In this document: one piece after another, positions 1,445 through 6,955 of the stretch
Layout of the letters: each line of letters starts with the position of its first letter
How positions within the stretch are numbered: position 1 is the first letter of the stretch
NCBI RefSeq assembly: GCF_002305895.1
Contig: NZ_CP022203.1
Location: 4,008,501-4,072,500, forward strand
From: Corallococcus macrosporus DSM 14697
GTDB lineage: Bacteria; Myxococcota; Myxococcia; Myxococcales; Myxococcaceae
Reading direction: 5' to 3'
DNA length: 64,000 bases
Translations under genes and position numbers: made by a program
The notes under the pieces: model-generated
Told to the model about the DNA's origin: nothing
The model's input: the letters and a program-made list of their open reading frames with translations, nothing else
Database searches by the model: none

Positions 1445-1786
1445 ATGAAGGCCGTTCTCGTCGTCTCCGCCTTGTTTCTCGGTCTGTTCCTCAGTTCGTG
1501 TGCGCACAACCGCTCCGCCGGGGCGGAGGCCCACCGCCGGGTCGAGGCCGGCGCCACGCTGGTGGACGTCCGTACTCCGGAAGAGTTCGCCGCCGGGCAT
1601 CTCCCAGGCGCGGTGAACCTCCCGGTCGAGGACCTGCCTCGTCGGTTCCCTGAACTCGGGTCGCCGGAGAAGCCCCTCGTCATCTACTGCCGCAGTGGCG
1701 CGCGCAGCAGCCGGGCCGAGCGCCTCCTGAAGGAGCGTGGCTTCCAGGACGTCTTCAACCTTGGCCCCATGTCTGCGTGGCCGTGA
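1445..1786 (+). CDS. Rhodanese-domain lipoprotein
   Basis: A 113-residue exported single-domain rhodanese (sulfurtransferase). Residues 1-18 form a lipoprotein signal ending LSSC, so Cys19 is the likely lipidation site. The domain starts at about residue 32. It has the conserved DVRTPEEFAAGHLPGAVNLP segment (41-60) and the active-site loop CRSGARS, with Cys82 as the persulfide-forming residue. A GGAG lies about eight bases before the ATG. The next three genes run in the same direction and are all envelope proteins, two of them of sulfur-metabolism families, so it probably transfers sulfane sulfur in the periplasm. The acceptor (cyanide, a thiol or a DsrE-like carrier) is not shown by the sequence. 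Confidence 0.9.
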   Translation: MKAVLVVSALFLGLFLSSCAHNRSAGAEAHRRVEAGATLVDVRTPEEFAAGHLPGAVNLPVEDLPRRFPELGSPEKPLVIYCRSGARSSRAERLLKERGFQDVFNLGPMSAWP

Positions 1787-1858
1787 CACGCGAGCCGCGC
1801 GCGCCGCGCCTCGTGTCATCTCCGCTGCCTGCCTTCTCTCCTCGAAAGGTGCTCCTCG

Positions 1859-3457
1859 ATGTCCCGTCTCCTGCCCTTGCTCGGCGCGCTGCTCGTATTG
1901 GCGTGCGGCTGTGCTTCGTCCCGGCCCGTGGCCACCGGCCGTGCACCTGAACCCCGGCGTCAGCAGCTCACCGTCCTCTACGTGGCGGACCTGCACGCCC
2001 AGTTGCGCGCCCACCCCGAGCTCTTCTGGCGCGACGGGGAGGAGCGCATCGAGATGGCGGGCGGCTTTGCCCGCATCGCCGCCGCCATCCGTCAGATTCG
2101 GGCCGAGCGCGGTGGAGACGTGCTCGTGCTCGACGGCGGTGACACGATTCAAGGCTCGGGCGCGGCGGCCCTCACCGAGGGCTCCGTGCTCATCGACCCG
2201 CTCAATGCGCTCGGGTTGGACGGCGCGGTGCCCGGCAACTGGGAGGTGGTGTACGGCCCCGAGGTGCTGCGCCAGCGCGCGCGTGAGCTGAAACATCCGC
2301 TCTTCGCGGCGAACCTGCGCGACGCGGCCAGCGGCGAACGGCTCTTCCCGCCTTACCTGATGAAGGAGGTGGGCGGGGTGAAGGTGGCGGTGGTGGGCTT
2401 CACGGACCCGGATGTGCCGCGTCGTCAGCCGCCGGACTACAGCCAGGGGCTGCGCTACGACGGCCCGGAGGCGTTGCCCGGATTGGTGCGCGAGGTGCGC
2501 GCGCGCGAGGGCGCCCAGGTGGTGTTGTTGATGTCGCACGTGGGGCTCGCCAAGGCCGTGGGGCTGGCCGCCAGGGTGCCCGGCGTGGACGTCCACCTGT
2601 CCAGCGACACGCATGAGCGCACCTATGTCCCCATCGAGCAGGCGGAGAGCTGGGTGGTGGAGCCTGGCGCCTTCGGCTCCTTCCTCGGCCGGTTGGACTT
2701 GTGGTTGGAGGACGGGCAGGTGGTGGACCGCCGCTGGGAGCTCATCGAGCTGACCGCGTCGCGCTTCCCCGAGGACCCCGACGTGGCGCGGCTCGTGGAC
2801 GCCGCGCTCACCCCGTACGATGAGAAGCTGTCCGCTCCAGTGGGGCACACCGACGTGGCGCTCGCGCGCTATGCGGTGGTGGAGAACCCGCTGGACAACG
2901 TGCTGGCCGACGCCATCCGCGCCGCTGGAGGGACGGAGATTGGCCTCTCCAACGGCTTCCGCTTCGGCACGCCGCTGCTGCCCGGCCCCGTACGCGAGGC
3001 GGACCTGTGGAACCTCTTCCCCGTCACCAACATGCTGAAGACGGGCAAGGTGAGCGGGCGCCAGCTCCGCGCCTTCTGGGAGCAGGAATTGGAGAACGTC
3101 TTCGCGAAGGACCCGGAGAAGCGCTTTGGCGGGTGGTTGCCGCGCCCCTCGGGGATGACGCTGCGCTTCCGCGCGGACGCCCCCAAGGGACAGCGCCTCC
3201 TCTCGCTGGAGGTCGGCGGCGAGCCCGTGGTGGACGAGCGCCTCTACACCGTGACGGCCTGCGAGCGGGAAGGGGACGCGCCGGACATGCTCTGCCGCAT
3301 CCCCGGTGTCCAGGAGCCGCGCGTGCTCGACGTGGACGCGCACGAGGCGCTGCGCCGCTTCCTCGCCGGCAAGCCGCGACTGAGCGGCGCCCTGGAGGGG
3401 CGCGCGGTGGGCGAGGACCTCCCGGCCGTGCTCCGCACCCAACGGGTCCAGCCGTGA
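1859..3457 (+). CDS. SoxB/5'-nucleotidase-type metallophosphatase lipoprotein
   Basis: A 532-residue two-domain protein of the UshA/SoxB superfamily. A lipoprotein-type signal (LVLACGC) covers residues 1-18. The N-terminal metallophosphoesterase domain has ADLHAQL (Asp and His metal ligands) and LDGGDTIQG, then GNWE where nucleotidases have GNHE and SoxB thiosulfohydrolases have GHWE. SSDTHERT replaces the usual GHTH. The C-terminal 5'-nucleotidase-type domain starts at about residue 320 and contains NPLDNVLADAIR, SNGFRFG and NLFPVTNMLKTGKVSG. In UshA-like enzymes it hydrolyses nucleotides; in SoxB it cleaves sulfate from a carrier-bound sulfur chain. The surrounding rhodanese, YeiH and DsrE genes favour a SoxB-like role, but no soxXA or soxYZ is seen. 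Superfamily is certain, substrate is not. Confidence 0.8.
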   Translation: MSRLLPLLGALLVLACGCASSRPVATGRAPEPRRQQLTVLYVADLHAQLRAHPELFWRDGEERIEMAGGFARIAAAIRQIRAERGGDVLVLDGGDTIQGSGAAALTEGSVLIDPLNALGLDGAVPGNWEVVYGPEVLRQRARELKHPLFAANLRDAASGERLFPPYLMKEVGGVKVAVVGFTDPDVPRRQPPDYSQGLRYDGPEALPGLVREVRAREGAQVVLLMSHVGLAKAVGLAARVPGVDVHLSSDTHERTYVPIEQAESWVVEPGAFGSFLGRLDLWLEDGQVVDRRWELIELTASRFPEDPDVARLVDAALTPYDEKLSAPVGHTDVALARYAVVENPLDNVLADAIRAAGGTEIGLSNGFRFGTPLLPGPVREADLWNLFPVTNMLKTGKVSGRQLRAFWEQELENVFAKDPEKRFGGWLPRPSGMTLRFRADAPKGQRLLSLEVGGEPVVDERLYTVTACEREGDAPDMLCRIPGVQEPRVLDVDAHEALRRFLAGKPRLSGALEGRAVGEDLPAVLRTQRVQP

Positions 3458-3521
3458 GCACCGCCACTTCAACGCCGCACCTGACCGCCAACGTCCTGTG
3501 TCGTCGCATCGGGCCCCTGAA

Positions 3522-4565
3522 ATGACCGCACCTCTCGCTGCTTCCGAATCGACCGCCGCCTCGTCTCCGCCGGGGAGCTTGTGGCGCCGGCGGCTGCCGG
3601 GCCTCGGGCTCGCCGCAGCGCTGGCGGTGGTCAGCTACGGGCTGGCCATGCTCCCGGGCCTCAAGGTGGTGGGGCCGCTCACGGTGGCCCTGCTCATTGG
3701 CATCTCACTGCGCACGGCCCTGGGGCTGGCCCCAAGCCTGATGGAGGGCACGCGCTACTCGGCGCGCACGGTGCTGCGGTTGGGCATCGTGCTGATGGGG
3801 GCGCGACTCGACTTCGGGCTCGTGGCGCAGGTGGGCCCGCGCGTGCTGCTGCTGTCCCTGGCCGTCATCGTCGGCGGCATTCTCGGCATCGGCTGGGTGG
3901 CGAGGCGCTTCGGCGTGCCGGAGAAGCTGGGCACGCTGTTGGCCGTGGGGACCTCCATCTGTGGCGCCAGCGCGGTGGTGGCCGCCAGCTCCGTCACGCG
4001 CGCGGAGGAGGAGGACACCACGCTGGCGGTGGGGCTGTGCGGAATCCTGGGCACGGTGGGCGTCCTCTTCTACGTCTTCGTGGGGCCGCTGCTGGGGCTG
4101 AGCAGCGCGCAGCTCGCCATCCTCTCGGGGGCGACGTTGCATGAGGTGGCGCAGGTCATGGCCGCCGCCTTCACCTGGGGCACCTCGGCGGGCGACCTGG
4201 GCACGCTGGTCAAGCTCACCCGCGTGGTGCTGCTGGCCCCCGCGCTCGTGGTGCTGGGGCTGGTCTCCGGCGCGGGCGGGCAGGTGCGCTACTCGCTGAA
4301 GGAGCCGCCCATCCCCTGGTTCGTCATCGGCTTCCTCGCGGTGGGCGTGTTGGGCACGGCCGGCGTGGTGCCCGCCGCCGCCAAGGGGTGGCTCTCCACC
4401 GCCAGCGTCTTCCTCATGGTGATGGCCATGGCGGCCATGGGGCTGGGCACCCACCTGAGCATGGTGCGCCGCGCGGGCATGCGAGTCGTCTACGCGGGCC
4501 TCGTGGGCTTCGCCGCCCTGGCGCTGGCCGCCTGGGGCCTCATCCAGTTGCTGTCCATTCAGTAG
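3522..4565 (+). CDS. YeiH/UPF0324-family putative sulfate/sulfite exporter
   Basis: A 347-residue polytopic membrane protein of the YeiH family (Cons_hypoth698), annotated by convention as a sulfate exporter. About ten hydrophobic segments are visible. Family landmarks include LRLGIVLMGARLDF, GTSICGASAVVAASSV (the highly conserved reentrant motif) and SGATLHEVAQVMAAAF. I chose the ATG at 3522; an in-frame GTG at 3498 would add eight unremarkable residues and neither has a strong ribosome binding site. The gene lies 64 bases after the metallophosphatase and 28 bases before the DsrE-like gene, so co-transcription is likely. It could remove sulfite or sulfate made from periplasmic sulfur compounds; that is inference. 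Confidence 0.85.
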   Translation: MTAPLAASESTAASSPPGSLWRRRLPGLGLAAALAVVSYGLAMLPGLKVVGPLTVALLIGISLRTALGLAPSLMEGTRYSARTVLRLGIVLMGARLDFGLVAQVGPRVLLLSLAVIVGGILGIGWVARRFGVPEKLGTLLAVGTSICGASAVVAASSVTRAEEEDTTLAVGLCGILGTVGVLFYVFVGPLLGLSSAQLAILSGATLHEVAQVMAAAFTWGTSAGDLGTLVKLTRVVLLAPALVVLGLVSGAGGQVRYSLKEPPIPWFVIGFLAVGVLGTAGVVPAAAKGWLSTASVFLMVMAMAAMGLGTHLSMVRRAGMRVVYAGLVGFAALALAAWGLIQLLSIQ

Positions 4566-4593
4566 TCCTCAACCGCGTTCGGAGTTCTTCGAG

Positions 4594-5058
4594 ATGAATC
4601 GTTTCCTGCTGTTGCTCGTCACCGCGCTCATCACCGTCCCCCTGGTCTCGTTCGGGGCGCCGCCGTCCCAACCCGCCGAGAAGAAGGAGGTGCCCGCCCG
4701 CCAGGGCAAGCTCGTCTTCGTGGCGACCACGGGGCTGGAGGACATCGGCACGCTCTCCAGTTCCTTGCGGCACGCGAAATCCGCGAAGGCGTCGGGCCAT
4801 CTCTCGGACGTGGTGTGGCTCACCTATGGCCGCGCGGTGGTGGCGCTGGACCCGACGGTGAAGGCCGTTCCGGAGGAGGTCCGCAAGGTGGCCCATGAGG
4901 CGAAGGCCGCTGGTGTGCGGATGGTGGCCTGCGGCCACGCGCTCCAGAAGTTCGACATCGACCCGAAGAAGCTCCAGCCCCAGGCCGACGTGGTGGCCAA
5001 CGGCGTGGCGGAGCTTTCGCGGCTGGTGGCCGAGGGCTATCAGGTCATCCGCTATTAG
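4594..5058 (+). CDS. Exported DsrE/DsrF-like protein
   Basis: A 154-residue protein with a cleavable signal peptide (residues 1-21) followed by a charged linker and a DsrE-like fold from about residue 36. The C-terminal half carries the family pattern: MVACGHALQKFDI, with a Cys at the position used for sulfur binding in DsrE-type carriers, then VVANGVAELSRLVAEGY and a terminal IRY. Cytoplasmic DsrE proteins relay persulfides; exported single-domain versions are common in bacteria but poorly studied. As the last gene of the rhodanese-metallophosphatase-YeiH run, it may be the sulfur acceptor for the lipoprotein rhodanese. The TAG stop lies within a TTAG that borders an IS-end-like sequence. 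Confidence 0.8.
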   Translation: MNRFLLLLVTALITVPLVSFGAPPSQPAEKKEVPARQGKLVFVATTGLEDIGTLSSSLRHAKSAKASGHLSDVVWLTYGRAVVALDPTVKAVPEEVRKVAHEAKAAGVRMVACGHALQKFDIDPKKLQPQADVVANGVAELSRLVAEGYQVIRY

Positions 5059-5634: not shown

Positions 5635-5847
5635 CTACAGACGCACCGCAGCCAGTAGCACCATGGCGAGGTATCACTGGCCGCGCTTCTCGTAGCGGGG
5701 GCCACGCGCCGGTTGTGCTTCAGCAGGACGATTAGGCGCTCCGCCCGGCTTCTCTGGAGGTACAGGCGGCGGCTGGAGATGACCGTCGGCGCGCACCACT
5801 GTGCCGTCCAGGTTGTGCTTCGCCCAGTCCAGCAGGCGTCGCAGCCG
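5635..5847 (-). pseudogene. Decayed IS5-type transposase fragment
   Basis: Read on the minus strand in one frame, this stretch gives pieces of an IS4/IS5-type transposase: LLDWAKHNLDGTVVRADGH (the segment holding one catalytic Asp), then after an internal deletion PRYEKRGQ, a stop codon, and YLAMVLLAAVRL before a second stop. The string RYEKR..YLAMV.LAA.R is typical of the C-terminal end of these transposases. The N-terminal half and most of the catalytic core are missing, so it cannot be active. It abuts the stop codon of the TlpA-like gene at 5848. Confidence 0.7.
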
Positions 5848-6339
5848 CTATGGCGCGGCGAGCAGCGCCTCCAGGCGCCGCGCGTAGAACGCCCTTGAGC
5901 GCTCGCCGTTGACGGCGGCCACCACCACGCCCTCGCGGTTGATGAAGACGGTGGCGGGCACGGTGGAGATGCGCAGCGGGCCCAGCACCTCGCCCTTCGC
6001 CGTGGCCACGGTCATGTGCACCCCCAGCTCAGCCGCGGTCTGGCGGTTGCGCGCTTCGCTGGGGTTGATGGAGAGCGCGAGGAAGCCGACGCCGCGCGCC
6101 TCGTACTCACTCCTCAGGGCTTCGAGCTCGGGCAACTCCCGAGCGCAGGCGTGTCAGCCTGGGGCCCATACGTTGATGACCCAGGGGCGGCCCAGCAGCG
6201 CCGCCCGGTCGATGCGCACGCCCTCCAGCGTCTCGGCCCGCAGGCGCTCCGGCACCGGCGTGCCGGGGCGGTCATAGCGGTCACACGCGCCCAGCAAGGC
6301 GAGCGCGAGCAGGAGCGGGACGCAGAGGGAACGGCGCAT
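5848..6339 (-). CDS. TlpA-like thiol-disulfide lipoprotein, candidate selenoprotein (UGA at codon 62)
   Basis: Reading through one in-frame TGA (6154-6156) gives a 163-residue TlpA/redoxin-like protein. Residues 1-18 are a lipoprotein signal (ALLGAC, Cys19). The thioredoxin fold starts at about residue 35 and reads WVINVWAPG-UGA-HAC-ARELPELEAL, so the TGA falls exactly at the first Cys of the CxxC pair and the resolving Cys65 is kept. Downstream are ALSINPS and the cis-Pro loop STVPATVFINREG. Codon use and reading frame are normal on both sides of the TGA. A SECIS-like hairpin follows at once (6126-6144). The start ATG at 6339 is preceded by AAAGAAG. The protein would be a periplasmic membrane-anchored oxidoreductase with a U-x-x-C centre. 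The alternative is a recent nonsense mutation; the exact position argues against it. Confidence 0.75.
6126..6144 (-). promoter_or_regulatory. Candidate bacterial SECIS hairpin
   Basis: On the mRNA (minus strand) the 19 bases GCUCGGGAGUUGCCCGAGC form a perfect 7-bp stem with the 5-base loop AGUUG. The stem begins ten bases after the UGA and the loop starts at the 17th base, so 16 bases separate UGA and loop. A G is in the first two loop positions and the loop holds a GU, as in the E. coli fdhF element. These values match the published bacterial SECIS pattern as I remember it. The hairpin lies inside the coding sequence, as bacterial SECIS elements do. Confidence 0.6.
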
Positions 6340-6955
6340 GGGCTTCTTTATGCACACGGAAGCACGCCCGCGCATCTTCTTCCCGCGCGGGCGCTCCGGC
6401 GGCGCCCGCGGTGTCACGCCCGGGACATCGCGGCGGCACACGGAAGGTCCCCTTGTCATGCGGCGTGGAGGTCTCGAAGCGCTCGAGCTGCCCCAGGGCC
6501 ACCTGGGGCGTGTTCGCCCGCGTACTGACCTGGCAGTTCCGCCCGAGGCTCATCCGACGGACGACGCCGAGGACGCGGCATGCGGAACAGGTGCGTCACG
6601 CGCTCACCTTGGAGCACGGTTGGAGGCCGCGCGGTGTGGAGGTGTCGGGTCCGGATGTCACTCTGGCCGCTATCAAGCGGGGGAGAAGACGCGGCGCCTC
6701 GTTGTGCGTACCGCTGCCCCTCGTGACCCAGCCGTGACGCACTCATGGCGCAGCAACGGGGTTTGGACGGACACACTTCAAACGGGCAGAGCGCACGGAA
6801 TGGCAGTTGCGGTGATGCTAGATGCGGGCACTGGAGACGGAACCCGCGCGCGAGAGGATTGTGTGTGAATGTTTATCGTGGCTGCATTGTCATGTGTTGT
6901 TGAGTGTTTGTTTGGATTGTGATTGCCTTTGGGGCATCTCTTACAAGGAGACGTC
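6340..6955. other. Divergent intergenic region, possible gene debris
   Basis: These 616 bases lie between the TlpA-like gene and a lipoprotein gene. The part next to the lipoprotein (about 6855-6945) is clearly more A/T-rich than the surroundings and probably holds its promoter. On the minus strand, 6410-6595 has one frame with coding-like third positions that reads VLGVVRRMSLGRNCQVSTR and onward, but it starts after a stop and has no recognisable domain. It may be the end of a lost gene. Confidence 0.4.

Follow-up and report, generated by a model that had tools for sequence, protein, structure and literature searches.

A predicted TlpA/ResA-like selenoprotein with a lipoprotein signal in Corallococcus macrosporus and its relatives

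Comparison with described thioredoxin-fold selenoproteins and reductases

Prokaryotic selenoproteins are arranged in a 2026 catalogue of 119 families and subfamilies, split according to domain and Sec motif (PMC13188914). One of them is the Prx-like thiol:disulfide oxidoreductase selenoprotein (pfam00578, UxxC/UxxU; WP_010940744.1; PMC13188914, PMC1794560). The gene described here, Sec-TlpA, shares with it the PF00578 domain, a single Sec within a UxxC motif and a bSECIS directly downstream. In the accessible portions of both sources, the Prx-like protein is listed for Geobacter, Syntrophus and Desulfotalea, and Myxococcus is not mentioned. As judged from its description, it differs from Sec-TlpA by the lipoprotein anchor of the latter, its hairpin encoded by ARELPEL and its suggested linkage to a sulfur gene cluster. 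A second related group, the ResA-like WAxxUGC protein or UGC-containing TlpA family (NF041054), likewise has Sec in the active site of a TlpA/ResA fold. Yet, Sec-TlpA displayed UxxC instead of UGC and scored 26.8 bits against this model (cut-off 300). With the reductases ResA, TlpA and CcmG it has in common the fold, a probable membrane-anchored periplasmic topology, the cis-Pro and the WxxxCxxC arrangement, but it carries Sec in place of the first Cys as well as a lipoprotein anchor, and its score for the ResA subfamily (NF002854) was 58.6 bits against a cut-off of 170.

The kind of selenoprotein (thioredoxin fold, PF00578, UxxC) is known, while the lineage-specific lipoprotein subfamily is new. 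The sequence-only reading, which had announced an unusual addition to the selenoproteome, stood as regards the subfamily and not as regards the kind, since a UxxC selenoprotein with the same domain was already catalogued (PMC13188914). The literature searched contained no earlier report of this subfamily or of selenoproteins from myxobacteria; its coverage was partial and such a report may exist. A selenoprotein subfamily is hereby added to Myxococcus and its relatives, which are soil predators.

Sec-TlpA is located in a window of 64,000 nucleotides from Corallococcus macrosporus DSM 14697, to which the coordinates refer. Its 492-nt frame on the minus strand (6339-5848) contains only one in-frame TGA, codon 62 (6156-6154), in the context ...NVWAPG-U-HAC-ARELPEL.... 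Its features were the following:

5848..6339, minus strand: Sec-TlpA gene, coding for a TlpA/ResA-like thioredoxin-fold lipoprotein of 163 aa with predicted Sec62 (Pfam, fold, orthologues)
6283..6339, minus strand: putative lipoprotein signal peptide with lipobox LLGAC (residues 15-19), read from the sequence
6285-6283, minus strand: codon of Cys19, predicted to be lipidated (lipobox; Cys19 conserved in at least 90% of the column in an alignment of 18)
6154..6156, minus strand: UGA codon, predicted to be read as Sec62, first position of UxxC (TGA/TGC column, Sec machinery)
6145..6147, minus strand: codon of the presumed resolving Cys65 (TGC), invariant in the alignment
5956..5958, minus strand: codon of Pro128 in TVPAT, the presumed cis-Pro loop proline, invariant in the alignment

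The read-through protein matched AhpC-TSA (PF00578) over residues 28-141, on both sides of the TGA, with 42.3 bits for a gathering score of 26, and a Redoxin match (residues 26-148) likewise extended across the TGA. The frame and these matches confirmed the earlier proposal of a single TGA at the first Cys of the CxxC in a TlpA-like gene. ResA structures were matched by phmmer over residues 36-150, and the predicted model (pLDDT 92) found its best PDB matches among ResA structures (TM 0.76, rmsd 1.7 Å). In the UxxC motif U62-H-A-C65, which has Sec first, Sec62 and Cys65 corresponded to the active-site cysteines of ResA; E68 sits at the place of ResA Glu80 and was kept in nearly all members of the alignment. 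Pro128 was assigned its cis-Pro role from established knowledge of the thioredoxin fold, which we take to hold here, and lipidation was predicted from the lipobox rule. A selenoperoxidase, as opposed to a disulfide reductase, would suit the best Pfam match, AhpC-TSA being common to peroxiredoxins; it is nevertheless quite unlikely, because the UxxC motif is that of TlpA/ResA and not the peroxiredoxin PxxxTxxC/U, and because sequence and fold neighbours were ResA, TlpA and CcmG. None of the NCBIfam models reached its cut-off on this lipoprotein subfamily, so that automated pipelines would break the gene in two or omit it.

The SECIS hairpin and the selenocysteine machinery

A hairpin was found immediately 3' of the TGA:

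6126..6144, minus strand: bSECIS hairpin, stem 6144-6138 paired with 6132-6126, loop AGUUG at 6137-6133 (covariation, codons, energy)

The bSECIS model comprises a loop of 3-9 nt, a stem of 4-16 bp, a spacing of 16-37 nt, a G at the first or second position of the loop and an energy of at most -7.5 kcal/mol (PMC13188914). The hairpin at 6144-6126 complied with all these published constraints: it displayed a perfect 7-bp stem, a 5-nt loop and an energy of -12.5 kcal/mol, at 9 nt (stem) and 16 nt (loop) from the TGA. The perfect stem and AGUUG loop noticed beforehand in the bare sequence were found again at these positions. Comparable hairpins, i.e. those with at least 7 Watson-Crick pairs, a 3-9 nt loop, a G among the first two bases of the loop and a spacing of 16-37 nt, occurred behind 23 of the 1,286 TGA triplets of the window (1.8%). 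A TGA arising by chance would rarely be followed by such a hairpin, and the structure was moreover conserved in 26 genomes.

The hairpin was kept in all 26 genomes with a TGA-bearing orthologue, in agreement with the published bSECIS model and at an identical distance from the UGA in every case. The 19 distinct hairpin sequences displayed standard pairs in 97.7% of pair cells, with compensatory changes from C-G to U-A at pair 14-30 and from U-A to C-G at pair 15-29, and five double-sided changes. The covariation score was 0.158, compared with 0.094 for shuffled controls and no more than 0.067 for slid versions of the structure. Loop bases AGUU were invariant across the TGA orthologues; one stem mismatch apiece was recorded in two close orthologues (L022 and L025) and in L031.

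Codon usage was adapted to the same structure. In tallies that take in related sequences, the loop Leu codon was TTG in 21/21 (elsewhere in the same genes, 9/501 Leu codons), the loop Phe codon was TTT in 5/5 (2/118 elsewhere) and the stem Ala codon was GCT in 18/22 (20/512 elsewhere). When close Myxococcus copies were collapsed to one, TTG or TTT still occupied the loop codon in all 17 rows. The coding sequence is bent to preserve the hairpin, i.e. its codons are locked. The perfect 7-bp stem-loop was absent from Cys homologues of other phyla that display the same peptide (C..CVRELPEL); the hairpin was likewise missing from L035 and L042, the closest pair of Cys orthologues. A covariance model of the hairpin scanned over the genome recovered only the Sec-TlpA site, the next match (E 0.9) being at chance level.

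The genome searched (one contig of 8.97 Mb) contained selA (545 bits, over cut-off), selB (283 bits, likewise over cut-off, its C-terminal domain being encoded in the same frame), selD (386 bits) and one tRNA-Sec (69.8 bits) whose anticodon was TCA according to ARAGORN. A homologue of the formate dehydrogenase alpha subunit, whose gene has a single in-frame TGA in the motif I-U-HSSTVPGLG, was encountered as a second selenoprotein, and the Sec system consequently has another user:

G000:C1:4684500-4689500 (L100:981-4400), plus strand: formate dehydrogenase alpha-subunit homologue with in-frame TGA

SelD was considered as a further selenoprotein and rejected, as it displayed Cys at the Sec position and its TGA looked like a normal stop. 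The plasmid search gave no match.

Orthologues, Sec/Cys exchange and selection

Orthologues with TGA at the same codon occurred in 26 of the 145 genomes searched, that of C. macrosporus DSM 14697 included, all of them from the same genus, family or order as the source genome. These relatives were 31-95% identical to the window protein; among the named records were Myxococcus xanthus, Myxococcus sp., Corallococcus sicarius and a number of Myxococcaceae MAGs. A 27th TGA orthologue (L105), from another genus, was added by a second search. Among 29 aligned relatives, the column of codon 62 was composed of 26 TGA and 3 TGC.

Purifying selection acts on the part of the gene that follows the UGA: in a set of ten close Myxococcus orthologues, dN/dS was 0.15 past the SECIS codons, compared with 0.50 upstream of the UGA, where the signal peptide is counted in. 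The values of 0.47-0.66 obtained after the UGA at larger distances derive from single pairs with constrained GC-rich third positions and are uninformative. These data bear on the reading that attributes the TGA to a nonsense mutation or to faulty sequencing and regards the gene as a pseudogene or as two fragments. The listing of open reading frames does give 6154-6459 and 5848-6135 apart, as standard annotation would, and the gene is missing from many species of the genus and is hence dispensable. Against this stand the identical TGA in 26 genomes, some of them just 31-50% identical over the protein, the selection that persists past it and the covarying RNA hairpin; the conserved codon and hairpin rule this reading out.

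The sequence-only reading had taken the gene for a candidate selenoprotein and had named beforehand three outcomes that would speak against it, namely a genome devoid of sel genes, close relatives with Cys at this codon and TGA in this strain alone, and a hairpin that is not conserved among TGA-bearing orthologues. The opposite was found each time: selA, selB, selD and tRNA-Sec were all present, close relatives carried TGA and not Cys, and the hairpin was conserved and covarying.

A relationship was further observed between the codon and selA, which was present in 26/26 TGA genomes vs 123/145 overall (chance probability 0.009, kinship ignored). The two closest Cys orthologues, both with TGC (L035 in G048 and L042 in G050), came from genomes in which selA had no match; a third and more distant Cys form (L048 in G031) came from a genome with selA. 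On the tree, three changes are required to account for the three Cys rows, and at least two are forced by starred branches. Sec/Cys exchange tracks selA in the closest orthologues, which provides a natural exchange series tied to selA loss. Programmed readthrough or suppression inserting Trp, Cys or another residue, with no selenium involved, would leave the frame equally open. It is, however, highly improbable, as the TGA falls exactly on the catalytic Cys position and swaps with TGC, the hairpin agrees with the bSECIS model (PMC13188914), and selA accompanies every TGA genome while being absent with the two closest Cys orthologues.

On these computational grounds, the gene at 6339-5848 almost certainly encodes a selenoprotein. 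Under the direction of the hairpin at 6144-6126, SelB and tRNA-Sec(UCA) would insert selenocysteine at the UGA (6156-6154). The resulting protein would be a lipid-anchored TlpA/ResA-type thiol:disulfide oxidoreductase facing the periplasm, with a WxPG-U-x-x-C centre in which Sec62 would attack the substrate and Cys65 resolve the selenenylsulfide. Re-reduction might be carried out by a membrane protein of the CcdA/DsbD type, and a CcdA-Trx fusion was encoded near Sec-TlpA in three relatives. Translation as Sec, lipidation, location and reductase activity are all predicted properties of this protein.

Distribution within the genus was patchy, many species having selA and no close orthologue; the gene appears to have been gained or lost often. 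In one genome (G087), the TGA form (L045) coexisted with a second copy without stop (G087:C5:25942-26385), which is probably a Cys paralogue.

Genomic neighbourhood and possible function

In the window, a sulfur-type cluster (1445-5058, plus strand) lies on the strand opposite to Sec-TlpA and is composed of four genes:

1445..1786, plus strand: rhodanese-like lipoprotein (PF00581, 72 bits)
1859..3457, plus strand: SoxB-like/5'-nucleotidase-family lipoprotein (best NCBIfam match TIGR04486 SoxB, 281 bits, below the cut-off of 550)
3498..4565, plus strand: YeiH-family putative sulfate exporter (PF03601, 238 bits; TIGR00698, 161 bits, below the cut-off of 232.6)
4594..5058, plus strand: DsrE/DsrF-like protein with signal peptide (PF02635, 36.5 bits)

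Homologues of DsrE, the SoxB-like protein and rhodanese were clustered with Sec-TlpA in three relatives (L083, L085 and L086). In L085 and L086 (G053 and G074), Sec-TlpA heads an array on one strand, starting with a YeeE-type sulfur transport gene (PF04143) and DUF6691, followed by an ECF sigma factor and an anti-sigma factor (both named by eye), a CcdA/DsbD-Trx fusion, rhodanese, the SoxB-like protein, YeiH and DsrE. In L083 (G076), a cluster of this kind surrounds Sec-TlpA, which is read from the other strand. This is reminiscent of SoxW/SoxV in Sox thiosulfate oxidation, as thioredoxin-like, CcdA-type and SoxB-like proteins are clustered in these three loci. The SoxB-like protein remained below the SoxB cut-off and SoxY (PF13501) had no match in the own genome, a weak negative as control genomes were silent too. 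The sulfur cluster was not encountered within 8 kb of the gene in other Myxococcus genomes or in deeper lineages, and the functional link between Sec-TlpA and these genes is on that account suggestive only. Conserved neighbours in the deeper lineages (acyltransferase-like and subtilase-like) gave no functional clue.

Sec-TlpA is likely to act as a periplasmic thiol/persulfide reductase. The linked sulfur cluster (SoxB-like, rhodanese, DsrE) may supply its substrates in the form of disulfides or persulfides, an assignment to which we give somewhat less than an even chance. About evenly balanced is the alternative of a ResA/CcmG-like selenoprotein that works as a general reductase of the periplasm or in cytochrome-c maturation and is not specifically tied to the cluster. 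The latter accords with ResA as best sequence and fold match, with the retained counterpart of Glu80, and with most genomes, where the cluster is not near the gene and, in deeper lineages, other neighbours take its place. An essential cytochrome-c role is disfavoured by the patchy presence within one genus, and the cluster houses the gene in two arrangements, at the head on the same strand and inside on the opposite one. More tentatively, the protein could be the dedicated selenol reductase of an undescribed myxobacterial pathway for periplasmic sulfane sulfur, re-reducing persulfidated or oxidised carriers, a proposal that we regard as rather doubtful. Such a pathway would involve the SoxB-like hydrolase, the rhodanese lipoprotein, DsrE, YeeE-type import, YeiH export and CcdA-Trx, and would operate under an ECF sigma factor and without SoxYZ. 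Whichever the substrate, the reason why a periplasmic reductase needs selenium can be addressed here in a cultivable model organism.

Just downstream of Sec-TlpA (about 5640-5800, minus strand), a stretch (KHNRRVAPRYEKRGQ) resembles, on visual inspection, the terminal part of a transposase remnant of IS5 type.
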